Source of the DNA: Bermanella sp. WJH001
GTDB lineage: Bacteria > Pseudomonadota > Gammaproteobacteria > Pseudomonadales > Oceanobacteraceae
NCBI RefSeq assembly: GCF_030070105.1
Contig: NZ_JASJOO010000002.1
Location: forward strand, 124,001 to 188,000
Direction of reading: 5' to 3'
DNA length: 64,000 nucleotides
Shown here: positions 11,786 to 23,048 of the stretch, piece by piece
How positions within the stretch are numbered: the first letter of the stretch is position 1
How the letters are laid out: every line of letters begins with the position of its first letter
The notes under the pieces: generated by a model
What the model saw: only the letters and a program-made list of their open reading frames with translations
Told to the model about the DNA's origin: nothing
The model's database searches: none
Made by a program: the position numbers and the translations under genes

Positions 11786-12628
11786 ATGAGTTTAGAAATT
11801 CTAAGCAGTGCTAAAGTGTTTGACGGTTGGCATAAACAGTATAGCCACCCATCAAAAAGCACCCATTGCAACATGCGATTTGCAATTTTTTTACCGCCAC
11901 AAACGGCAACCGGTGAAAAGGTCCCTGTGTTGTATTGGCTGTCGGGTTTAACTTGTACCGATGAAAATTTCATGCAAAAAGCGGGCGCTTTTTCTGAAGC
12001 GGCTAAATTGGGCATAGCCATAGTGGCGCCAGATACCAGTCCCCGTGGTGAAGGGGTTGCGGATGATGTTGATGGCAGTTACGACTTTGGTTTAGGGGCG
12101 GGTTTTTATCTAAATGCCACACAAGCGCCGTTTAATCAGCATTATAAAATGTACGATTATGTGGTGAATGAATTACCGGCTTTGATAGAAGCAAACTTTC
12201 CAGTGACACAGCAGCGTGCGATTAGTGGTCATTCCATGGGAGGGCATGGTGCGTTAAGTATTGCACTAAAAAACAGTGAACATTATTCATCGGTGTCGGC
12301 GTTTAGCCCGATTGCCAATCCGATTAATTGCCCTTGGGGGCAAAAAGCGTTGGGCGGGTATTTAGGCGAAAATCAACAAGATTGGTTGGAGTATGACAGC
12401 AGCGAATTAATGAAAAATTTCACAGGCAAGCCCATACCTGCGCTGGTGGATCAAGGGGATGCCGATAACTTTTTACAAGAACAGTTAAAGCCACAGGCCC
12501 TACAAGCCGCGGCTAAGGCAAGTGCTTACCCGTTAACCCTGCGTATGCAAGCGGGTTACGACCATAGCTATTATTTTATCAGCACCTTTATTGCTGAGCA
12601 TATCAGGTTTCACGCCGAGCATTTTTAA
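11786..12628 (+). CDS. fghA: S-formylglutathione hydrolase
   Basis: Alpha/beta-hydrolase (esterase D family) of 280 residues that splits S-formylglutathione into formate and glutathione, the second step of formaldehyde detoxification. The nucleophile is S150 in GHSMGG; the other triad residues appear to be D227 (in QGDADNF) and H260 (GYDHS). The N-terminal half carries the family motif WLSGLTCTDENFMQKAG. Co-transcribed with frmA and followed by a strong terminator. Confidence 0.95.
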   Translation: MSLEILSSAKVFDGWHKQYSHPSKSTHCNMRFAIFLPPQTATGEKVPVLYWLSGLTCTDENFMQKAGAFSEAAKLGIAIVAPDTSPRGEGVADDVDGSYDFGLGAGFYLNATQAPFNQHYKMYDYVVNELPALIEANFPVTQQRAISGHSMGGHGALSIALKNSEHYSSVSAFSPIANPINCPWGQKALGGYLGENQQDWLEYDSSELMKNFTGKPIPALVDQGDADNFLQEQLKPQALQAAAKASAYPLTLRMQAGYDHSYYFISTFIAEHIRFHAEHF

Positions 12629-12646
12629 ATAATAGGTTGGGTATTT

Positions 12647-12681
12647 AAAAGCCATTTATTCACAGAATAAATGGCTTTTTT
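12647..12681 (+). terminator. intrinsic terminator of the frmA-fghA operon
   Basis: Perfect 14-bp stem (12647-12660 with 12666-12679, arms AAAAGCCATTTATT and its complement), a 5-base loop, then T's. The A-run on the left lets it work in both directions and so also end the convergent kinase-like transcript. Confidence 0.88.
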
Positions 12682-12705
12682 ACGACTTTATGGGGGTAGC
12701 AACCG

Positions 12706-13206
12706 TTACTGATCTTGCGTTTTTAGTGTGGGGTTCTCTTTGTATAAATGTTTTGTGCCGCGAAAATGATCAAATAAAGATTGATGTGCTTTTTTCGAGA
12801 AGTTGTCGTCACGTGTATCGTATTGAGCGATCCAGTCTACTAACATCTTTAAGTTGGCATCTTGCGCTTCTTTTGAATCGTATTTGTGAGGCTCCCAAGG
12901 TCTTGATTTTGCATTTTCAATGCAAGACTGGGTAGGTAAGTCCATAAAAAATACTTCATTGCAGGACGTTAAGATAGGTTCGATCAAATCACTATAACAG
13001 CCCTCAATTACCCAGCAAGGATGTTGATCGATGAATGCTTCTATAGTGGTTAATGACTCTGATAAGGGTTTACGGCTCGGTGGTTGTGTATCTTGCCAAG
13101 CAAGAGTGTCTAGATCCAGATGGGAAAGTTGATGAGTCAGGCTTAAATGTTTGGCTAATGTTGATTTGCCCGAACCTGAATTACCAAAAATCACGATGCG
13201 TTTCAT
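12706..13206 (-). CDS. P-loop NTPase (adenylate kinase/topology-modulation-like)
   Basis: Single-domain protein of 166 residues. Walker A is GNSGSGKST (8-16) directly at the N-terminus, followed by the family-typical LDLDTLAW and WVIEGCYSDLI segments. This is the small P-loop kinase-like group often annotated AAA ATPase or DNA topology modulation protein (FlaR-like); substrates are mostly unknown. It stands alone, convergent with fghA and with 90 bp (including a strong hairpin) separating it from the desaturase gene. Confidence 0.75.
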   Translation of the reverse strand: MKRIVIFGNSGSGKSTLAKHLSLTHQLSHLDLDTLAWQDTQPPSRKPLSESLTTIEAFIDQHPCWVIEGCYSDLIEPILTSCNEVFFMDLPTQSCIENAKSRPWEPHKYDSKEAQDANLKMLVDWIAQYDTRDDNFSKKAHQSLFDHFRGTKHLYKENPTLKTQDQ

Positions 13207-13228
13207 GCTTACCCCTTATGGCTATGTG

Positions 13229-13259
13229 CAATAGACATGTAACTAAGACATGTCTATTG
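13229..13259. other. perfect 12-bp hairpin between desaturase and kinase-like genes
   Basis: Arms CAATAGACATGT (13229-13240) and its exact complement (13248-13259) with a 7-base loop. No T-run follows on either strand, so it may be a factor-dependent terminator or mRNA stabiliser for the desaturase transcript, or an operator for the kinase-like gene whose start is 23 bp away. Confidence 0.5.
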
Positions 13260-13296
13260 TAACCAATAGTCACCGCAAGGGTAGGACAGAAATACC

Positions 13297-14430
13297 TTAA
13301 ACTGGATTTAAAGCGTTGGTTTTTTTGTCAGGGAAACTGTAGCGAATGATTCGCTTGACCACACTGAAATACTGCTTCAAAAAACCACCGCTATTGTAAG
13401 GTATGTTGTATTTACTGCATAAGCTTCGAACTTCTTTTGCCATTTCTGGGTAGTGTTTTGCGGGCACATCTGGAAATAAGTGATGCTCCATTTGGCAGCT
13501 TAAATGGCCCGTCATGATATGAAATAAACGGCCACCTTCGAGATTAGAAGAGCCTAAAATTTGACGATAATACCATTGACCTTGAGTTTCGTTTTCACAG
13601 TCAGAGCCTTTGAACGTGTGAATATTTTCGGTGAAATGACCACAAAAGATAATGGTGTTTGTCCAGATGTCCCGTAACAAATTGGCCACGAAGTTACCGG
13701 CTAATACCTGAAGAAATACAGGAAAGCACAACAGAGGATAAAAAATATAATCTTTAAATAACTGGCGTGCGGCTTTATTAAAGAAAGCGGCTTTTAGTTG
13801 TTCACGAGTAATAGGGAGTTTACTGACTTTACGCTGCTTGCCCATAAAGACTCGCTCGCCTGCTAATTCGTGATAAGCGATGCCCCATTGAAAATTTAAA
13901 CATAATGCAATGTAGGTAAAAAACTGAAAAAGGTTTTTAGGTTTCCAGCGAATGTCATCACTTAAGCGTAATAAGCCATAACCAAAGTCGCGGTCTTTCC
14001 CTATGATGTTGGTGTAGGTGTGGTGTTCGTGATTGTGATAGCGTTTCCATGAGGCGCTGTCACCAGCATTATCCCACTCGAAATTACGGCTATTGATGTT
14101 TGGATCATTCATCCAGTCGTATTGACCATGTAAAACATTATGGCCGATTTCCATATTATCTAATATTTTAGCAGTGGCTAACGCCAATACGCCGATCACC
14201 CAATATACTGGGTGAATAAATCCCAGTACGATTAAAACGCGGCCTGCTATATCGCTTAAACGCTGAACACGAATCATGTTACGAATGTATTGAGCGTCTG
14301 CTTTACCTACTTTTGCCATGGTACGTTCGCGGATATCGTTAAGCTCAGTTGCAAATTGATCCAAGGTTTCGATGCTTGGATTATTTGGGTCAATAAATTG
14401 TGAATCAGCCCATTGTGTTTGTGCATTCAT
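13297..14430 (-). CDS. membrane fatty acid (acyl-CoA type) desaturase
   Basis: Integral-membrane di-iron desaturase of 377 residues. The three histidine boxes are H97-x3-H101 (GHNVLHG), H132-N-H-E-H136-H137, and Q313-x2-H316-H317 (QMEHHLFP). The QxxHH third box places it with DesA3/linoleoyl-CoA-type enzymes rather than membrane-lipid DesA. Hydrophobic stretches lie near 60-90 and 230-265. Transcribed 12 bp after the gene for its presumed electron donor; AAAAGGAG precedes the start. Probable role: introducing double bonds into acyl-CoA for membrane fluidity. Regiospecificity cannot be read. Confidence 0.88.
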   Translation of the reverse strand: MNAQTQWADSQFIDPNNPSIETLDQFATELNDIRERTMAKVGKADAQYIRNMIRVQRLSDIAGRVLIVLGFIHPVYWVIGVLALATAKILDNMEIGHNVLHGQYDWMNDPNINSRNFEWDNAGDSASWKRYHNHEHHTYTNIIGKDRDFGYGLLRLSDDIRWKPKNLFQFFTYIALCLNFQWGIAYHELAGERVFMGKQRKVSKLPITREQLKAAFFNKAARQLFKDYIFYPLLCFPVFLQVLAGNFVANLLRDIWTNTIIFCGHFTENIHTFKGSDCENETQGQWYYRQILGSSNLEGGRLFHIMTGHLSCQMEHHLFPDVPAKHYPEMAKEVRSLCSKYNIPYNSGGFLKQYFSVVKRIIRYSFPDKKTNALNPV

Positions 14431-14442
14431 ATTTATCTCCTT

Positions 14443-15561
14443 TTATAAGTCCAAAACCACATCGTTTACGGGCACGCTAATGCATAGCTGAATCTCTTGA
14501 GCACCCGTGTCACTATAAGTTTTGGTTTTACTGTTATAGACAACACCGCTTTTCTTTTGGCAGATGCATTGGTGACATACACCAATACGACAACCACTAA
14601 CGGGTTTTAAATCATGGTTTTCTGCTAGTTCCAATAATGTTTGATTATTAGATGTGCTCACAACTTGTTTATTGCTGCGCCCAAAAAGAACTTGCGCATT
14701 GTCGTTCTGCAAGTCAGTGGAAAGTGGCTCAGGTCCAAAAAATTCGTAGTGGATATGCGCATTGTTGACATTTAGGTCACTTAATATTTTGCGGCCCAGT
14801 GTAATCATTGGGGTGGGGCCACAAATATAAAAATGAGTGTCTGAGTTGAGTTGTTCAATTAGGCTAATGTGCGAGCCGTTAATGTTACCTAGTTGTTCAC
14901 TGTCTATTAGCTGTAAATGAAAATTTGAATTTTGATTAGCAAAGCTTTCAAATTCTTTTTTAAACAAAAAATGCTCACTGCTTCGAGCGTAATAAAGCAG
15001 CGTGATATCTTGCTGGGTGTCATTGCTGTTTGGTTTTAAATTCATTTGCTGCAACATGGAGCGAAAAGGGGTGATGCCGCTGCCACCGGCAATCATGCAT
15101 ACAGATTGGTGCTCTGGGTTAAGCGTGAACTCACCCATGGCCTTTGATATGTTTACTAAACTGCCTGCCTTTAATGCTTTAGGAAGCCAAGGTGTAATTT
15201 TACCGTGGCTTTGAATGCGAATACTTAATTCAATTAAGCCTGTTTTTTTAAAATATTCAGGACTGGATGAAATGCTGAAATAACGACTCAGCCAAGCGCC
15301 ATCTTTTTCAACGGTAAGTTCAATATATTGTCCCGCTTGAAATGCTTGAAATCTTTTATTGGCCTTAATAACTAAGCTGAACATGTCTTGGCTTTCATGG
15401 CGAACTTCAACCACACGGCTGCGCAGTAGGTCGCTACGCCACTGTGGTAGAGCCATTTGAATAACGGGTTCAAAATACGCGCGGATGCTTTGATGGTTGG
15501 TTAAGCTGCCAATAAACCAATGCCAAGCCTTACTTGCTTTAGTTGATGCGATAGTTTGCAT
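14443..15561 (-). CDS. flavodoxin/ferredoxin-type reductase with C-terminal [2Fe-2S] domain
   Basis: Electron-transfer protein of 372 residues: FAD-binding barrel (~45-150, with RYFSISSSP), NAD(P)-binding domain (~150-280, with GGSGITPFRSML), and a plant-type [2Fe-2S] ferredoxin domain at the C-terminus (C-x4-C-x2-C in GCRIGVCHQC plus a later cysteine near 362). It lies first in a two-gene operon with the desaturase and should pass electrons from NAD(P)H to it, like the reductases paired with DesB in Pseudomonas and DesA3 in mycobacteria. The 272 bp upstream hold no gene and no TetR (DesT-like) regulator. Confidence 0.87.
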   Translation of the reverse strand: MQTIASTKASKAWHWFIGSLTNHQSIRAYFEPVIQMALPQWRSDLLRSRVVEVRHESQDMFSLVIKANKRFQAFQAGQYIELTVEKDGAWLSRYFSISSSPEYFKKTGLIELSIRIQSHGKITPWLPKALKAGSLVNISKAMGEFTLNPEHQSVCMIAGGSGITPFRSMLQQMNLKPNSNDTQQDITLLYYARSSEHFLFKKEFESFANQNSNFHLQLIDSEQLGNINGSHISLIEQLNSDTHFYICGPTPMITLGRKILSDLNVNNAHIHYEFFGPEPLSTDLQNDNAQVLFGRSNKQVVSTSNNQTLLELAENHDLKPVSGCRIGVCHQCICQKKSGVVYNSKTKTYSDTGAQEIQLCISVPVNDVVLDL

Positions 15562-15800
15562 GCATAGCTCCTATAATTTCAGTGAACAAGTGTATGCCGA
15601 AAATAAGGGGCAGTAAATTAAATTATTATTAAATCTAGTAAAAATGGGACATTTTTGGTTGTATTTGGAGAACAGTTGTTTCTTTAAAGTGATTTATACC
15701 GTTATCTATTGTGGTGGTTAAATGGATGAGTTTGCTATCAAATGGTGGGGGCTGGGCATACAGGAGGGTTGATAGGTTGGGATTAAGGTGCATGTGAGCA

Positions 15801-15826
15801 GGGTAGGCAAGGTGTTTTGCCTACCC
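15801..15826 (-). terminator. hairpin downstream of the di-iron protein gene
   Basis: Ten-bp perfect stem (GGGTAGGCAA at 15801-15810 with 15817-15826), 6-base loop, 8 bp downstream of the minus-strand stop codon. No T-run follows, so termination is likely but not certain. The rest of 15562-15800 shows no gene. Confidence 0.5.
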
Positions 15827-15833
15827 ATAGCTT

Positions 15834-16565
15834 TTAATCAGTGGCAATACCCACGTGGAGTTTCTCAAACCAGTCTAAGAATTTTTGCACATCGTCGCCT
15901 TTAAATAGACGACCATGTTGGGGAGCCATGATTTCAATGTCTAATTCTCTTACCCGCTTTAACCAGTGGTGTTTGGCCGTATCGGATGGCATCCAGCGTT
16001 CATGAAAGTAGCGCATTTTGTCAACGTGGCTATCAAAATCTTCAACAAATAGCGGGCAATTTGGTGGCTCAAGTGCAGCACCAATGTCGCCACTAAATAG
16101 GATTTTAGATTTTGGATCATACACATGAAAATTGCCGGAGCTATGCAGGTAATGAGCAGGAATAAATTCTAACTCAATGTTGTTCAATGTGACTTTGCCG
16201 CCTTCATCATCAATTGAGCTGTAACCAATTTTATCCATACCAAAGTGACGTATAAAGCCTTCCCATAGCCATGATGCATGAAGTTTTGCATTGGGTAATA
16301 CCTGATCCCACATGCCCAGCGATGAAATAATATCTGGGTCTTGGTGGCTGGCAAATAGATCGGTGATGTGTTCAATGTCGACGTATTTTAATACGGATGC
16401 CAGCATGGTTGAGAAGACTTCGATGCCGCCTGGGTCCAATAAGATACTGCGGTCACCATCGACGATCATAAACTGATTGGTATCAATGATCTTTTCTGGT
16501 TTTTCAGGGTCACGACCAAAAACGTACCATTGGTGGCCTTCGTCGTAAATCTTAAGTGCATCCAT
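15834..16565 (-). CDS. MBL-fold oxygen-binding di-iron domain (ODP) protein
   Basis: Metallo-beta-lactamase-fold protein of 243 residues of the FprA/flavorubredoxin di-iron group but lacking flavodoxin and rubredoxin domains. Predicted iron ligands are all present: H74-x-D76-x-D78, H138 (PAHYLHSSGNF), D160 (SGDIGA) and H217 (PQHGRLF). Stand-alone ODP domains of this type bind O2 at a di-iron site and can act as oxygen sensors for chemotaxis; lacking FMN, it is unlikely to be a full oxygen or NO reductase. The gene starts 8 bp after an MCP-like helical protein gene in what looks like a hemN operon. Confidence 0.8.
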   Translation of the reverse strand: MDALKIYDEGHQWYVFGRDPEKPEKIIDTNQFMIVDGDRSILLDPGGIEVFSTMLASVLKYVDIEHITDLFASHQDPDIISSLGMWDQVLPNAKLHASWLWEGFIRHFGMDKIGYSSIDDEGGKVTLNNIELEFIPAHYLHSSGNFHVYDPKSKILFSGDIGAALEPPNCPLFVEDFDSHVDKMRYFHERWMPSDTAKHHWLKRVRELDIEIMAPQHGRLFKGDDVQKFLDWFEKLHVGIATD

Positions 16566-16573
16566 GCTTAACC

Positions 16574-17194
16574 TTAATGTTGAGTGAATTTAAATTGTGA
16601 TAGTTGATTTTGACTAAATGTAATGTGGTGTTTGATGTCGTTACTTAGGCCATCAATGGTGTTTGCCATATGTTCCAGTAACGGCTGGTAGTCACCTGTT
16701 TGGGTCGCTTCTAATCGAAATGTTACGGCCACTACACTGCTGGATTGCATATATTGGCGTATGTCGATGAGTTGCTCGTTAAGTTGTGACAGTTGTGATT
16801 GCATGCTGCTGTTTAACGCTTCAAGGCTGTCTTCGCCGCAGTTAAGTGCGTGATTTAACTGGGAGGTTTTGTTTTGATTGATGCGCTTTTTTGTGCGGTT
16901 TACGTGGGATAAAAATGAATTGGTGCGCCACTGGCGTACTGAGTTTTGCGAAATACTAATGGCGCATTGATTAATTGTGCCTGAAAGTTTGATGGTTTTG
17001 CCGGCAAGTTCATCAAAGTAATCGCTGATGACTTTTAACCCAGCGGCCTGTGCACCAGCGCGCAGCACCATAGCGCGAGAGTTTTTAGCAGCCAGCGCCA
17101 TGCGTTTTGCAATGATGCTGGCCCGATAAAGATGTCCAGAAATGGTCGCCGCCGCTGCGGTTTGTGAGGCTATGTTGGACGTGTCTTTGGTCAT
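16574..17194 (-). CDS. MCP-like helical protein, putative signalling partner of the di-iron protein
   Basis: Entirely alpha-helical, soluble protein of 206 residues with no signal peptide or membrane helix. The stretch from about 28 to 75 (IAKRMALAAKNSRAMV ... LKVISDYFDELAGKTI) follows the pattern of the cytoplasmic tip of chemoreceptors (IA..T..LALNA.IEAARAG..G.GF.VVA.EV..LA..T), but in degenerate form. The second half is coiled-coil-like. Between hemN (24 bp upstream) and the ODP gene (8 bp downstream), so probably co-transcribed. Inference: a small receptor-like partner relaying the O2 state of the ODP protein. No sensor domain of its own is visible. Confidence 0.6.
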   Translation of the reverse strand: MTKDTSNIASQTAAAATISGHLYRASIIAKRMALAAKNSRAMVLRAGAQAAGLKVISDYFDELAGKTIKLSGTINQCAISISQNSVRQWRTNSFLSHVNRTKKRINQNKTSQLNHALNCGEDSLEALNSSMQSQLSQLNEQLIDIRQYMQSSSVVAVTFRLEATQTGDYQPLLEHMANTIDGLSNDIKHHITFSQNQLSQFKFTQH

Positions 17195-17218
17195 GTGTGA
17201 CCTATTGTCATATTTGGT

Positions 17219-18610
17219 TTATATCACTTTACTATAGCGTATACCTTGATCTGGGCGAGTCAGATATTCATCAAATACCATACAAATGCTTCGGATCAAT
17301 AAAATGCCCTTATCGTGCACTTGTATGCCCTGTGATGAGACGCTTAATAGGCCGTCTTGTTCGAAGTTCTCAAGGTTAGCCAGCTCTTTTGCAAAGTGGG
17401 TTTGTGGATCAATATGGAAGCGTTTTTCAATATCGCAAAACGATAAATTAAAGTGACAAATGAGCTGTTTGATGACGGCTTGTCGTAACTCGTCTTCATC
17501 GGTCAGGGTAAGCCCTTTATTGATGGGCAGAACGCCTTGCTCTAATTGGGACTGATAAACCTCGATGTCAGCACTGTTTTGCATGTAACTATGGCCAATT
17601 TGGCTAATGGACGAGACACCTAATGCCACTAAATCGCAGTCTGGGTGAGTGGTGTAGCCTTGGAAGTTACGATGCAGTTTGCCAGCTTGTTGAGCTTGGG
17701 CAAGGCTGTCATTGGGTTTCGCAAAGTGATCCATACCAATATAGATATAACCGGCTTGTGTGAGCATTTGAATGCTGTCTTGTAACATGCCAAGTTTGGT
17801 TTCAGGGTTTGGTAGATCTTCGGTTTGAATGCGACGCTGAGGCATGAAGCGCTCAGGCAAGTGGGCATAATTGAACACCGAGATACGATCAGGGCTTAAG
17901 TCGATAATGTGCTGCAATGTTTTCTGAAAGCCACTGCGGCTTTGTAATGGCAGGCCGTAAATAAGATCAATATTGATGGATTTAAAATCAAGTGCCCGCG
18001 CTTGATCTAGGGTGGCTTTGGTCATCTCTAGAGGCTGCACGCGGTTAACCGCTTTTTGCACGGCCGGGTCAACATCTTGAACCCCAAGACTGACACGATT
18101 AAAGCCAATGCTTTTAAGGTGAGCGAGGGTGTCGTTTTCCAGTTCGCGAGGGTCGATCTCGATTGAAAAATCACGATTTTGAGCTGCTGATAAGTTGAAA
18201 TGTTCGGCCAGTTTGTTCATTAACCGGCTCATTTGTTCATTGTTTAAGAACGTTGGAGTGCCGCCGCCAAAGTGCAGTTGATCAACGGTACGCTTGTCAT
18301 CATAACCTTGGGCGCGTAATTCGATTTCTTTAAATAGGGCCTTAAGGTAAGGCTCTGCTTTTTCACGACGTTTTGTAATGACCTTATTGCACGCGCAGTA
18401 ATAACAGACATGGGCACAAAAAGGGATGTGCACATACAAAGAAAGGCCTTCATCTTGTTTATGGCTGCTAAGGCGAGCTTGCAGGTATTGCTCGGAATCA
18501 AAGCCTGGTAAAAATTGTACGGCGGTAGGGTAAGAGGTGTAGCGTGGGCCAGATTTGTCGTGGCGCTTAATTAGGTCAATGTCCCACTGGATATTCGTTT
18601 GAAGATTCAT
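17219..18610 (-). CDS. hemN: oxygen-independent coproporphyrinogen III oxidase
   Basis: Radical-SAM enzyme of 463 residues that oxidatively decarboxylates coproporphyrinogen III to protoporphyrinogen IX without O2. The [4Fe-4S]/SAM motif is C65-x3-C69-x2-C72, with the additional C74 typical of HemN. RYTSYPTA near the N-terminus and RNFQGYTT mark true HemN rather than HemW. An FNR-like site lies 56 bp upstream. First gene of an apparent operon with the MCP-like and ODP genes, linking low-oxygen haem synthesis to oxygen sensing. Confidence 0.94.
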   Translation of the reverse strand: MNLQTNIQWDIDLIKRHDKSGPRYTSYPTAVQFLPGFDSEQYLQARLSSHKQDEGLSLYVHIPFCAHVCYYCACNKVITKRREKAEPYLKALFKEIELRAQGYDDKRTVDQLHFGGGTPTFLNNEQMSRLMNKLAEHFNLSAAQNRDFSIEIDPRELENDTLAHLKSIGFNRVSLGVQDVDPAVQKAVNRVQPLEMTKATLDQARALDFKSINIDLIYGLPLQSRSGFQKTLQHIIDLSPDRISVFNYAHLPERFMPQRRIQTEDLPNPETKLGMLQDSIQMLTQAGYIYIGMDHFAKPNDSLAQAQQAGKLHRNFQGYTTHPDCDLVALGVSSISQIGHSYMQNSADIEVYQSQLEQGVLPINKGLTLTDEDELRQAVIKQLICHFNLSFCDIEKRFHIDPQTHFAKELANLENFEQDGLLSVSSQGIQVHDKGILLIRSICMVFDEYLTRPDQGIRYSKVI

Positions 18611-18665
18611 GATACGCCCACATTTTAAAGATGGGCTATGTTAACAAGGCTTATGTGATGGGATA

Positions 18666-18679
18666 TTGCTTCAGGTCAA
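18666..18679 (-). promoter_or_regulatory. possible FNR/Anr box upstream of hemN
   Basis: On the minus strand TTGACCTGAAGCAA matches TTGATnnnnATCAA at 8 of 10 specified positions. It sits 56 bp before the hemN start codon, a plausible distance for activation near -41.5. A single imperfect site. Confidence 0.4.
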
Positions 18680-18704
18680 GCCAGTCGTGTGGAACACGAC
18701 TGGC
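18680..18704 (-). terminator. hairpin downstream of the solute-binding protein gene
   Basis: Perfect 11-bp stem GCCAGTCGTGT (18680-18690) with 18694-18704 around a 3-base loop, 10 bp after the stop codon of the minus-strand binding-protein gene. No T-run follows, so it may be Rho-assisted. It borders the hemN promoter region. Confidence 0.55.
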
Positions 18705-18713
18705 AATCATGAT

Positions 18714-19829
18714 TTAGAAATAGCTCTGCATAGGTACACTGCACCATTTGCCATTTGAGCAAATCGCTTTCACCCATAGACGGTGCTTGATGCGATTCAC
18801 TTGACGCTCTTTGGGCGCCATCATTTGTAAACCCGCTAACGTTTGAGCGTTTGGGTAAATGGTAGGGTCGTTCAAAATCTCTTCATCGACATACTGCTGC
18901 GCATTGAGCATAGGGCTTGGGTAAGCGGTGTAATTGGAATTACGACCAGAAACTTGAGCGCCCATCATGTAATCAATGAAGGTATAGGCCATGTCTTTAT
19001 TGGGGGCGTTTTTAGGAATGGCCATAATATCAATCCACATGGCGGCCCCTTCTTTGGGGATCACGTATTGAAGATCAGGGTTTTCAGCCACTTCGGTTAA
19101 AATGTCGCCCGAATAGCCCACGCCTAGGCAAATTTTGTTTTCTTTTAGATCGTCTGTGTATTGTGTGCTGTGTAAGTAGTTGATATCAGCGATGGTCTCT
19201 TTAAGTAATTGACCAGCAGACTGTAACTCTGATTTTGAACTGGTGTTGATGGAGTAACCCAGGTACTTAAGGGCTGCCGCAAAAATTTCATCACGCTCAT
19301 TTACGATGCCAATGCCGCATTTAGAGAGCTTTTTGCGGTATGCGCTATCGAATAATAACCCCCATGAGTGGTTACTTGGATCAATGCCGACTTTTTGTAC
19401 TTCTTTTGTATTGATGCCAATACCCGTTGTGCCCCACATATAGGGAATGCTGTACACATTTCCGGTATCCAGTAATTCAAGGCCGTTCATTACCACAGGG
19501 TTTAAGCTTGAAAAGTTTTTAAAACGGGCTTTATCTAGCGGGATGATTAAATCATTGTCCGCCATGATGCGAATAATGGCCGAAGCCGGAAATATCACGT
19601 CAAATTGGTTGTTTGGGTTAAAGAAGATTTCAGTGAACTCATCAACGCTATTGAATTCTGCGTATTCAATGGTCACGTTGTTAGCTTGTTCAAATTCTTT
19701 TAGTACATCAGGGTCAATGTATTCCCCCCAGTTTAATACTCGTAGGGTTTGTGGCGCACTGTGGGCTTGATGGGCAAATACACAGGCAAATAGGGTCAGC
19801 GATAAAATCGCCTTGATCAAGTTCGGCAT
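18714..19829 (-). CDS. periplasmic polyamine-type solute-binding protein (PotD/PotF-like)
   Basis: Exported binding protein of 371 residues with a signal peptide (about 1-25, ending HQAHSA). The mature start LRVLNWGEYIDPDVLKEFE and the segment PYMWGTTGIGIN are typical of spermidine/putrescine-binding proteins. No ABC permease or ATPase genes adjoin, so it either serves a transporter encoded elsewhere or has a sensory role. Ligand (putrescine, spermidine or another amine) cannot be settled by eye. Confidence 0.85.
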   Translation of the reverse strand: MPNLIKAILSLTLFACVFAHQAHSAPQTLRVLNWGEYIDPDVLKEFEQANNVTIEYAEFNSVDEFTEIFFNPNNQFDVIFPASAIIRIMADNDLIIPLDKARFKNFSSLNPVVMNGLELLDTGNVYSIPYMWGTTGIGINTKEVQKVGIDPSNHSWGLLFDSAYRKKLSKCGIGIVNERDEIFAAALKYLGYSINTSSKSELQSAGQLLKETIADINYLHSTQYTDDLKENKICLGVGYSGDILTEVAENPDLQYVIPKEGAAMWIDIMAIPKNAPNKDMAYTFIDYMMGAQVSGRNSNYTAYPSPMLNAQQYVDEEILNDPTIYPNAQTLAGLQMMAPKERQVNRIKHRLWVKAICSNGKWCSVPMQSYF

Positions 19830-19940
19830 TTTAGTCTCGGTATGATTTCATTGAAATTGGGGTAACGCGTATGCCTAAATGAGGTACTGCATGGCACATG
19901 TGAATTTAGGACAATTGTCTCGTTCTTACTAATGAGAAAG

Positions 19941-19962
19941 ATATATCCCCTAGGGGATATAT
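19941..19962. promoter_or_regulatory. 22-bp perfect palindrome, probable operator
   Basis: Each half reads ATATATCCCCT on its own strand, giving an uninterrupted 22-bp palindrome centred on CTAG. It is the only notable signal in the 302-bp gene-free stretch 19830-20131 between the divergent binding-protein and acylphosphatase genes. Without a loop it is a poor RNA hairpin and more like a protein-binding site; the C4/G4 core in AT flanks recalls CsoR/FrmR-family operators, though that link is only by resemblance. Confidence 0.5.
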
Positions 19963-20131
19963 TTGGTGAAAAGCCGCATATTTATTCGAGTTTTTGTGAT
20001 GGATTTCTATTTTTTATAACACTTGAAGCGCACTGACTTGTGCTTTGAGGGGGCATAACAAAGAACGAGTTGTTTGACGATGCTGTAATTGCCAGCCTAT
20101 ATTGGGGCTCGGCTTGTTTAAGGAGAGGGAT

Positions 20132-20425
20132 GTGCAAGCGCAACAGGATCAGCTACAGGCATACCATGTGTTCGTGTCAGGCAAGGTGCAGGGGGTGTAT
20201 TATCGTGCCTCTACGGCAAAGAAAGCGCAGCTGCTTGGGTTAAAGGGGTGGGTTAAAAACTTGGTTGACGGTCGGGTTGAATTGTTTGCTCAAGGGGATG
20301 CCGAATCTCTAGAGAAATTATTAAGCTGGTGTCAAAAAGGACCAATGTTGGCCAAAGTCAGTAAGGTTGAGTGTGAAGTGGCGCAAGTGGATGAAAAAAT
20401 GGCGCAGTTCGAGGTCATGCGCTGA
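20132..20425 (+). CDS. acyP: acylphosphatase
   Basis: Small (97-residue) enzyme hydrolysing acyl phosphates such as carbamoyl- or acetyl-phosphate. Catalytic R25 (GVYYRAS) and N43 (GWVKNL) are both present with family spacing. The GTG at 20132 is taken as start because AGGAG lies 6 bases before it; an upstream TTG at 20102 would bury this site. Monocistronic as far as can be seen. Confidence 0.92.
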   Translation: MQAQQDQLQAYHVFVSGKVQGVYYRASTAKKAQLLGLKGWVKNLVDGRVELFAQGDAESLEKLLSWCQKGPMLAKVSKVECEVAQVDEKMAQFEVMR

Positions 20426-20489
20426 CTTTCATGACAGGCCTTAGCCTGTTAATCTTAAGTTCATCATTCATCACTTTAAAATAATAATA

Positions 20490-20882
20490 ATGAATTCAAA
20501 AATGAACCCTCTATTTGTAGTTTGTATGACCTTATTTGCTTTGGCGATAACGGGTTGTAGTTCCATGCCTGGCGCCCTAGAAGGTAATGACTTAAGCCAT
20601 TTAAGTTTACGTGATAAACGCATGGCTGATAGCAAGGTAAAAGTTTTACAGGCTCAACCTCAGACCAGTAGCTCTTTGGGGCAGGTTAGCTCTAAGCGTT
20701 GTCAAAGCTCTATGTTCAGTGAAGCTCCAGAAGAAAAAACCTTAATAGTTGATATGAAAGCTGAAGCTTACCGCTTGGGTGCCAATGCCATTAGTGATGT
20801 AAAAATCGAGCAACAAGGTGCGATGGGTGATGGTTGCTGGAACGTGTATACCGCCACTGCGAATATGCTTGTGATTGAATAG
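20490..20882 (+). CDS. RcsF-like outer-membrane lipoprotein
   Basis: Lipoprotein of 130 residues. Signal peptide ends in the lipobox A-I-T-G-C23, with S-S after the lipidated cysteine, fitting outer-membrane delivery. The globular part (from about 65) resembles RcsF, the envelope stress sensor: a C-Q-S-S start, a helix with ...EAYRLGANA, and a C-terminal strand after G-C-W. Only two cysteines (C71, C116) remain, enough for one of RcsF's two disulfides. No other rcs gene is near. Identification is by pattern only. Confidence 0.55.
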   Translation: MNSKMNPLFVVCMTLFALAITGCSSMPGALEGNDLSHLSLRDKRMADSKVKVLQAQPQTSSSLGQVSSKRCQSSMFSEAPEEKTLIVDMKAEAYRLGANAISDVKIEQQGAMGDGCWNVYTATANMLVIE

Positions 20883-20903
20883 TTTTTATTATGTTTGAAT
20901 ACT

Positions 20904-20928
20904 AAGCCAGCTGATAGCTGGCTTTTTT
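20904..20928 (+). terminator. intrinsic terminator after the lipoprotein gene
   Basis: Nine-bp perfect stem AAGCCAGCT (20904-20912) with 20916-20924, 3-base loop, then a T-run. It lies between convergent genes and ends the lipoprotein transcript. Confidence 0.88.
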
Positions 20929-20939
20929 GTGCCTGCAAA

Positions 20940-21233
20940 TTATACCTCTTGGTATCCTTTTGGCGCTTTACCTTGAATGAAAAACGCAAAGGCTAATATT
21001 TCAGCCACTAAGCGGTAAAGTTCTGGTGGGATGTTATCGCCAATACTCATGGTGCTTAATTGCTCTAATAATTCTGGGTTTTCATAAATGGGGATGCCTG
21101 CGTCATAGGCAATGTCGACCAATTCTTGAGCGGCTCCTCCAAAGCGTTTTTCGCTAATAATGGGTGCTTGGCCGCCATCGTAAAACAGCGCTAAGGCTTG
21201 CTCAATTTCGTGTTTGGGGATGAGGTTATTCAT
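20940..21233 (-). CDS. FlhB C-terminal-like protein (EscU/YscU/HrcU family)
   Basis: Small protein (97 residues) equivalent to the cytoplasmic export-switch domain of FlhB without its membrane part. Recognisable segments are ALALFYDGGQAPII, GIPIYENPELLEQL and IPPELYRLVAEILAF. The autocleavage NPTH motif of true FlhB is absent. The ATG at 21233 is preferred (AGGTG 5 bases upstream) over a GTG six bases earlier. It starts 9 bp after the FliK-like gene, so the two form an operon; such small paralogues are thought to modulate flagellar export specificity. Confidence 0.85.
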   Translation of the reverse strand: MNNLIPKHEIEQALALFYDGGQAPIISEKRFGGAAQELVDIAYDAGIPIYENPELLEQLSTMSIGDNIPPELYRLVAEILAFAFFIQGKAPKGYQEV

Positions 21234-21242
21234 AAGCACCTA

Positions 21243-23048
21243 TCAAGTATGAACATCGATTAACGATTGTTGGATCGGTTGGTGTAGGGGTTTAGGTGCA
21301 CCATGTTTACTGGTGACACTGTCAATTTTGAAGCCGGCCTGTTCTAACTTGTTCTTAATGAGGGGTATGTGTTGATGCAACTTTTTCAATTGCTCGGCCT
21401 CACTTGCCCATAATGTGACGGACAGTTGCTCTTGTTTGAGGTGGCTTTCAATGGCAAATGCCTGAGTGGTTTGTTGGGCAAAGCGTAAGATTAAGTGCCA
21501 ACCTTGAGCGGACGCCTCTTTTGTTTGTGATGGTGTGTGTTGCTTGCATTCAAAATCACACCACTGAATTTGGTTTTGATGCACATAAGGCAATGAAAGT
21601 TGAAACTGAGTATTGTCTTGAGTGTTAAAAAAACGGTTTTGTATTTGGTCGTGCGTGAGTTTAGATAAACTTTGATTAATGCCCAGTAATTGGCGTAACA
21701 ATGATGATTCGTTGTCGTTTTGATTAAGGCTGTTTGATAGGGCAAAAAGGGTTTGCTGTAATTGTGGCTGCACGGCTAATGATTTTGGCCAAATGGATTC
21801 AGCTTGGTTGTCACTGGCTGCTTTGGGCATCATGAGTATGGAGAGCCACTGACTGAGATCCTGAAATGTCTTGATACCTGCCCCAGCGTTTGCCCCTTGA
21901 AATGAAGAAGCAGGCCAATTTGGTATGAAGCTGTCCTTGCGCTGCATAAGCTGTTTGCTTAGCTGCTCTAGTAATTGGTGTTGGTTTTGAATTAACCAAT
22001 TTTTATGGTCATGCTTTAAAACTGGATGACTGCTGGATGACGTTAACGTTTGGCTTAATGGGCTTTTAAAACTGTCAGTCATATTTGTGTTTGAAACAGA
22101 AGGCTGTTGCACACCAGGTGTATTTTGAAGGGCTGAGCTGTTTAGAGTTGGTATGTTTGCCTGTGAGTTTTTGGGCGTTGTGTTCGATATTTTTTGTTGG
22201 AGCAAGCTGACCCACTTTTGAATATTTTGTTCTACCTGAGCCATTTTGTTTTGCATGTTGCCATGAAGGCTGGGTTGAGGGGTCTCGGCATTGGGGATGT
22301 TCAGTGTTGGTTCTTTACCTTTAGTTGTTTGTGAGTGCAGTTGAAGCAATTGGGTTAATTTGGCTTCAAAGTTTTGCCCGCTATCCATAACCGCTTGTTT
22401 GAGCGTGTTGGGCGCAAGGGGAATATGGCTTTGCAAGGTAGTTTTGGGTAACGGGGTCAGTGGAAACTTAAGTGGTGTTTCTTTATGTGTAATTTGATGG
22501 TTATCAATAAGCGTAATGGGTTTTAAGGTAAAATTCTGCGCCACAAATTGTGATCGAAATTGATTTAAGGGTGTCTGTGTTTGAGCGCTTTGAATCGTAA
22601 GCTTACCTTCGGGGCTTTGCTGTAATAAAACTTGGCTGTTTGCTGCTACGGGCCGATTAGAGAGAATGCTAATGGCTCCTTTCACACTTAAAAGCTTAAT
22701 TAATACCAGTTTTACGTTATTCGGCAGTGGTGTTTCTTTGTTTAAACTTTGCGCAATATTTGAAAGGTTTAACTTTTCACTGATGCCACCGCCTATAGCT
22801 TGGCTGGTTGGGCTTGTATTGGGTGTTTGTCCGTTTAACAACGCTAATTGATTTAGAACTTGCTGATTTTGGCTTGGCGGTAATGTTTGGCTGGATTCCA
22901 CTTTGGCCCAGGTGTTAATTAGTGCTTGAATGCTTGAGTTTGCAAGGGGCGCTGGCGAACTGGAACCGCTCACCTGGACGCCTTTTGATGGGGCTTGAGT
23001 TGGTGAGGGCGATTGCACGTTAATTGTCGGTTCGTGTGGAAGTTTCAT
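21243..23048 (-). CDS. FliK-like flagellar hook-length control protein
   Basis: Low-complexity protein of 601 residues, very rich in Gln, Ser, Pro, Leu and Asn over residues 1-~480, with a compact C-terminal domain (about 490-590) resembling the FliK Flg_hook domain that signals the export switch. Paired with the FlhB-tail paralogue just downstream; FliK and FlhB interact physically in flagella, which supports the pairing. No other flagellar gene is in this window. It is divergent from the ccm operon, an order also seen in pseudomonads. It may be a second FliK rather than the main one. Confidence 0.7.
   Translation of the reverse strand: MKLPHEPTINVQSPSPTQAPSKGVQVSGSSSPAPLANSSIQALINTWAKVESSQTLPPSQNQQVLNQLALLNGQTPNTSPTSQAIGGGISEKLNLSNIAQSLNKETPLPNNVKLVLIKLLSVKGAISILSNRPVAANSQVLLQQSPEGKLTIQSAQTQTPLNQFRSQFVAQNFTLKPITLIDNHQITHKETPLKFPLTPLPKTTLQSHIPLAPNTLKQAVMDSGQNFEAKLTQLLQLHSQTTKGKEPTLNIPNAETPQPSLHGNMQNKMAQVEQNIQKWVSLLQQKISNTTPKNSQANIPTLNSSALQNTPGVQQPSVSNTNMTDSFKSPLSQTLTSSSSHPVLKHDHKNWLIQNQHQLLEQLSKQLMQRKDSFIPNWPASSFQGANAGAGIKTFQDLSQWLSILMMPKAASDNQAESIWPKSLAVQPQLQQTLFALSNSLNQNDNESSLLRQLLGINQSLSKLTHDQIQNRFFNTQDNTQFQLSLPYVHQNQIQWCDFECKQHTPSQTKEASAQGWHLILRFAQQTTQAFAIESHLKQEQLSVTLWASEAEQLKKLHQHIPLIKNKLEQAGFKIDSVTSKHGAPKPLHQPIQQSLIDVHT

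Follow-up and report, generated by a model that had tools for sequence, protein, structure and literature searches.

The window analysed here is a stretch of 64,000 nucleotides from Bermanella sp. WJH001 (contig NZ_JASJOO010000002.1, positions 124,001 to 188,000), and the subject of this work is a pair of adjacent genes on its minus strand. One encodes a stand-alone oxygen-binding di-iron protein (ODP; 243 residues, 15834..16565). The other encodes a helical protein of 206 residues (16574..17194), which we call MCPL because it resembles the tip of chemoreceptors (MCPs), and which was recognised by its adjacency to ODP and by profile homology to MCPs. The pair follows hemN (17219..18610, minus strand), the gene for an oxygen-independent coproporphyrinogen III oxidase, whose product scores 608.9 bits against TIGR00538 (equivalog cut-off 324.95) and is the only match in the genome above the HemN cut-off. 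The three genes form one minus-strand row in the order hemN, MCPL, ODP, separated by 24 and 8 bp, so that the coordinates, strand and spacing in a preliminary description of this DNA, made from the letters and their translations, were correct. The pair probably shares one transcript with hemN.

The identity of the ODP is clear from its full-length match to Pfam family PF19583 (E 1.4e-77, 260.4 bits against a curated cut-off of 27.2) and from its similarity to two ODPs of known structure, 6qrq (E 5.7e-66) and 6qnm (E 2.4e-54). Residues H74, D76, D78, H138, D160 and H217, which we take to be metal ligands by comparison with flavodi-iron proteins, are each kept in 64-65 of 65 homologues, and all 65 have Q75, which lies at the HQDPD motif. 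The protein differs from the flavodi-iron core in that its Pfam list contains no flavodoxin or rubredoxin family. The preliminary description of an ODP with every expected ligand but no flavodoxin domain is borne out by these results. The metal set of the Thermotoga ODP is described as including a glutamine (PMC7785958).

Conservation and setting of the MCPL-ODP pair

Searching 192 relatives gave 42 genomes with MCPL at E<1e-17, that of the window itself included, and samples of 369 genomes across the class and 398 across the phylum added 19 (E<1e-26) and four (E<1e-38) further MCPL genomes, respectively. Each of the 65 genomes in which the core family is matched (E<1e-17) has the ODP gene as the immediate same-strand neighbour of MCPL, and the same adjacency is found at 35 of 35 named genome loci, which belong partly to the same genomes. 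The preliminary description had called for a survey of co-occurrence and had named a lack of conservation as the outcome that would count against it; no such lack was found. The MCPL-ODP pair is a conserved unit and a real system, carried by many marine bacteria among a large set of Gammaproteobacteria. The closest named relatives of MCPL, at 66-73% identity, carry the labels Bermanella or Thalassolituus. Ten weak class-wide hits to MCPL, long frames that we read as full MCPs, had no ODP in their short flanks (0/10).

Two plasmid records were found by tblastn, and both carry the pair. It is annotated as a hypothetical protein and an MBL fold metallo-hydrolase on the plasmid of Shewanella aestuarii, and as a chemotaxis protein and an MBL fold metallo-hydrolase on that of Pseudoalteromonas xiamenensis; by profile, with scores of 419 and 431 bits, each metallo-hydrolase belongs to the partnered ODPs. 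The Shewanella plasmid pair (locus L198, 5893-7262) has a nitrate/nitrite transporter and a transposase nearby. A 453-residue open frame at locus L126 was considered as an MCPL-ODP fusion and rejected, its N-terminal stretch overlapping the MCPL gene in another frame.

ODPs that accompany MCPL appear to form a subfamily. Of the 369 class genomes, 151 contain a PF19583 match, a count that takes in weaker MBL and flavodi-iron-like matches. Among 30 class-wide ODP loci that were retrieved, the window's included, an MCPL-type gene lies upstream in 13 and is absent from that position in 17. Against a profile of MCPL-linked ODPs, the 13 partnered proteins score at least 309.8 and the 17 unpartnered ones at most 241.2, a split that arises partly by construction because the profile was built from partnered ODPs. 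In a tree of 34 sequences (the 30 loci and four more partnered ODPs), a branch supported at 100/99 has all 17 partnered ODPs on the same side; the program warned that L117 is a long branch of unsure placement. The partner gene at L109 was found only by a combined MCPL profile (1.9e-12) and barely by the distant one described below (0.0034). A second gammaproteobacterial ODP branch had no MCPL-type gene at the loci examined (L105, L107, L111, L112, L114, L116-L120, L122-L125, L128, L129 and L133).

For seven distant MCPL-ODP pairs (L134-L139 and L142), wider flanks were retrieved. Four of these pairs sit between CheW/CheB and CheR genes (L134, 8093-9513; L135, 5552-7004; L136, 7449-8827; L142, 4659-6004). 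At L134 the order, confirmed by Pfam, is CheA, two MCPs, CheW and CheB, then MCPL and ODP, and then CheR. At one core locus, L192, a gene for a 544-residue MCP (profile E 7.5e-62) lies 0.85 kb upstream of MCPL. We also compared 46 of the 65 MCPL genomes with 34 hand-picked genomes that have no core MCPL: CheA (PF02895, E<1e-12) was matched in 45/46 and 19/34, respectively (Fisher p 3e-6, with phylogeny ignored). Genomes G416 and G223 each carry one core and one distant MCPL-ODP pair.

MCPL and the chemoreceptor tip

By itself, the window MCPL reaches no Pfam family above its cut-off, and its Pfam list contains no sensor, HAMP or membrane family, as judged from Pfam alone. MCPsignal (PF00015) is matched at E<=0.1 by 22 of 35 MCPL family members, the best at 3.5e-7. 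When a core profile of 35 MCPLs was run against PDB sequences, the top seven hits were all MCPs (E 6.1e-6 to 9.9e-4) and the first hit after them was unrelated (E 0.013); with a distant profile of six MCPLs, the top 13 hits, at E<1e-3, were all chemoreceptors. The best of these was 4jpb_B (6e-11), the TM14 fragment in 4JPB, a structure in which CheA and CheW are in complex with part of this chemoreceptor analogue (PMC6746300). The profiles identify MCPL as genuinely related to the MCP tip, though degenerate. They uphold the preliminary description of a middle protein with a degenerate chemoreceptor-tip pattern, and the finding that was to overturn it, a profile search showing no relation to MCP signalling domains, gave the opposite outcome. 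MCPL shares the hairpin-tip sequence pattern of PF00015 proteins, including soluble TM14 (3g6b, 4jpb), but differs from them in the score of the window protein, which is below the curated cut-off, and in the residues lost from its two halves.

The preliminary description had spoken of one such tip, and on this point it needs amending, since the pattern seemingly occurs twice, once in each half of the protein. In comparisons by hhalign with ten MCP tips, the N-half (residues 15-82, 16949..17152) reached E 1.2e-7 and the C-half (residues 145-186, 16637..16762) E 5.3e-5 with a probability of 67%, while the two halves matched each other at E 3.5e-4 with a probability of 37%. The corresponding scores of 47.8, 32.4 and 24.8 compare with 22.4, 21.3 and 19.4 for the best of 200 column shuffles, and both scores against MCP tips also exceed a reversed-profile control. 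In 3g6b, one and the same tip stretch is matched by both halves of the core profile. The distant MCPLs behave alike (N-half 9.4e-10 and C-half 1.1e-4 against MCP tips, N against C 3.3e-4), with none of 100 shuffles reaching either score against MCP. At a loose threshold of i-E<1, 45 of 65 MCPLs are matched in each of their two halves by an MCP profile. That both halves match the same MCP hairpin tip suggests a tandem duplication, and MCPL is probably made up of two fused receptor hairpins, the single-chain equivalent of a receptor dimer tip.

The two halves have kept different residues. In the hhalign register, with presumed Tsr numbering, the N-half retains equivalents of N381 (65/65), G390 (65/65), G395 (63/65) and R388 (60/65) and has lost E385 (0/65); the C-half retains E385 (61/65, E162 in the window protein) and has mostly lost N381 (10/65) and R388 (13/65). 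No single hairpin of MCPL combines the E385 and R388 equivalents. E385-R388' is described as an inter-dimer ionic lock of receptor trimers (PMC8144572), and a chain with the lock partners in different halves would, as we infer, mimic a receptor dimer asymmetrically. We tentatively suggest, at somewhat less than even confidence, that MCPL is a tandem-duplicated tip folded as a single-chain asymmetric pseudo-dimer, with the R388/N381 side in one hairpin and E385 in the other, which, instead of building an array of its own, might insert into receptor trimers or cap them under the control of oxygen.

Structure prediction agrees with two hairpins without proving them. The AlphaFold2 (AF2) models of the window MCPL (pLDDT 85.2, pTM 0.74) and of its homologue at L069 (86.1, 0.77) are all-helical. 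In Foldseek searches neither model had a hit at E<=0.001; designed helical bundles, presumably four-helix ones, came first, among them 6z0c_A (TM 0.65 with the window model and 0.45 with the L069 model), and MCP chains appeared low in the lists, at rank 22 for the window model and at ranks 15, 22, 40 and 42 for L069.

An alternative is that MCPL consists of a single MCP-type tip joined to an unrelated helical C-half, the second match being a coiled-coil artefact. This would compete with the duplication and leave a sensor role untouched. The weaker match of the C-half and the low probability of the N-to-C comparison speak for it, as do the cross comparisons between families, which are weak (distant N against core C 0.0036, distant C against core N 0.027), and the DSSP assignment of both AF2 models, where a turn is present at the C-half tip and no break is seen at the N-half tip. 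It does not readily account for a register that two programs place identically and that the core family shares with the distant one, for scores that beat 200/200 shuffles and the reversed profile (100/100 for the distant halves), or for the alignment of the conserved E162 to the E385 column of MCPs. We regard a single tip as a somewhat doubtful explanation.

A candidate oxygen input to the chemotaxis array

The arrangement recalls a known system. According to PMC7666581, the ODP of Treponema denticola senses oxygen and is coupled to an MCP that has no sensor or membrane part and that modulates CheA, and deletion of ODP changes the ordering of CheA; direct contact between ODP and its cognate receptors is reported in PMC6978683. 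The likeness to the T. denticola proteins TDE2498 (ODP) and TDE2496 lies in a separate ODP gene coupled to a sensor-less protein of MCP type: here a separate ODP gene lies beside an MCP relative in 65/65 genomes, and the window MCPL has no Pfam family over its cut-off. TDE2496 is described as an MCP homologue able to modulate CheA; MCPL has 206 residues, a degenerate and apparently duplicated tip, and occurs in Gammaproteobacteria.

We consider it likely that MCPL and ODP work together in the cytoplasm as a two-protein device that feeds oxygen (or Fe/O2) signals into the chemotaxis array, a reading drawn from sequence and from analogy with the published ODPs. Gene pairing, MCP ancestry and the chemotaxis context of the four distant pairs are matters of direct observation, and the following steps would link them. 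ODP, like other members of its family, would bind oxygen at its di-iron centre and dock on MCPL; docking is expected because of the strict gene pairing and the direct receptor contacts reported for ODPs elsewhere. As a sensor-free remnant of a signalling tip, MCPL would use that tip to contact CheA/CheW or receptor trimers, and the oxygen state of ODP could in this way alter kinase output. In such a chain, from ODP through the MCPL mini-receptor to the array, the cytosolic level of O2 or Fe would be reported to the swimming machinery, and the row behind hemN in the window may be induced at low oxygen. The idea of a split oxygen sensor, put forward in the preliminary description, is as a prediction for this protein well supported by gene context and by published ODP work.

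Several results weigh against such an input. The window MCPL scores only E 0.11 against MCPsignal (12.7 bits, cut-off 34.6). Three of the seven distant pairs have no match to the CheW, CheR or CheB queries beside them, nor do the core-family loci in the 1.5-6 kb flanks examined. Phylogeny and the hand-picked controls confound the association with CheA, and at E<=0.001 the counts become 45/46 and 28/34. Finally, genome G053 has no CheA match; it has eight MCP matches over the cut-off besides MCPL, and four CheW domains.

Two other functions have to be considered. ODP might be an enzyme that reduces O2 or NO, with MCPL as its helical partner in electron transfer or assembly and the resemblance to MCPs a non-chemosensory relic. 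The MBL/flavodi-iron fold of ODP, the degenerate tips of MCPL and the lack of chemotaxis neighbours in the flanks examined at core loci speak for this, but the Pfam list of ODP lacks flavodoxin and rubredoxin, four distant pairs lie among che genes, CheA is present nearly always, and ODPs are known as chemotaxis sensors (PMC7666581, PMC7319448, PMC6978683), which together make a reductase unlikely. Alternatively, the row could serve iron or haem metabolism, ODP sensing Fe/O2 or removing O2 to protect HemN and the helical protein acting as a scaffold. Here the company of hemN, which precedes MCPL in five of seven same-genus loci and is here the only match in the genome above the HemN cut-off, is set against its absence elsewhere: two loci of the same genus (L040 and L057) have no hemN beside the pair, even within 6 kb upstream, and none of 30 named loci outside the genus has it (1.8-6 kb upstream examined). 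A haem operon as the general rule was accordingly rejected; the haem link is lineage-specific and local, and hemN is no part of the conserved pair. With the che setting of the four distant pairs and the MCP descent of MCPL also against it, a role in haem or iron metabolism seems decidedly unlikely. The tie to oxygen-independent haem synthesis in the preliminary description is not a general one.

The chemotaxis input would be a variant of the split ODP/MCP sensor. PMC7319448 credits Muok 2019 with describing ODPs that share operons with MCP genes and fall into two groups, with two gene orders, and further ODPs with other signalling genes. The window pair may already belong to one of the two groups; since PMC7319448 retells them, the pair itself may be in print. 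The duplicated-tip partner looks new: no such ODP partner was described in the literature searched, a search whose reach did not extend to Muok 2019, the key ODP paper. Auxiliary sensing of O2 or Fe for chemoreceptors by ODP is known; here the partner is an apparently duplicated receptor tip in place of an ordinary receptor. A natural single-chain pseudo-dimer of the receptor tip, if true, would offer a ready tool to test how dimer/trimer asymmetry controls CheA.

Signals and genes around the row

Low oxygen may control the hemN-MCPL-ODP row. An FNR/ANR-like box (TTGACctgaaGCAA, 18666..18679, minus strand) lies 69 nt before the hemN ATG and agrees with 8/10 consensus bases, a weak lead without a chance control for the site; both the consensus and a role for it at hemN are assumed. 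Similar boxes precede hemN at L041 (8/10) and L042 (7/10), scored against the same consensus. Upstream of MCPL, simple base shuffling yields a site as good as the best FNR site in <=2% of shuffles at 6 of 34 loci, which is suggestive only.

Just past the ODP stop, a hairpin (GGGTAGGC...GCCTACCC, 15801..15826, assigned to neither strand) has a T-rich tail on the plus strand only; two sites of this kind were found against 3.2 expected in shuffles. An Rfam scan of 12000-23000 gave no match above gathering scores.

Upstream of hemN, the window holds a gene for a PotF-like polyamine-binding protein (18714-19829), and at L041 a gene 51% identical to it precedes hemN. On the other side, a fatty-acid desaturase and an FAD/NAD/2Fe-2S reductase are encoded on the same strand with a gap of 12 bp (13297-15561), which suggests a desaturase supplied by a dedicated electron donor. 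Farther away, at 20940-23048, lie genes for a short FlhB-C-like protein and a long FliK-like protein, as judged from their translations alone.

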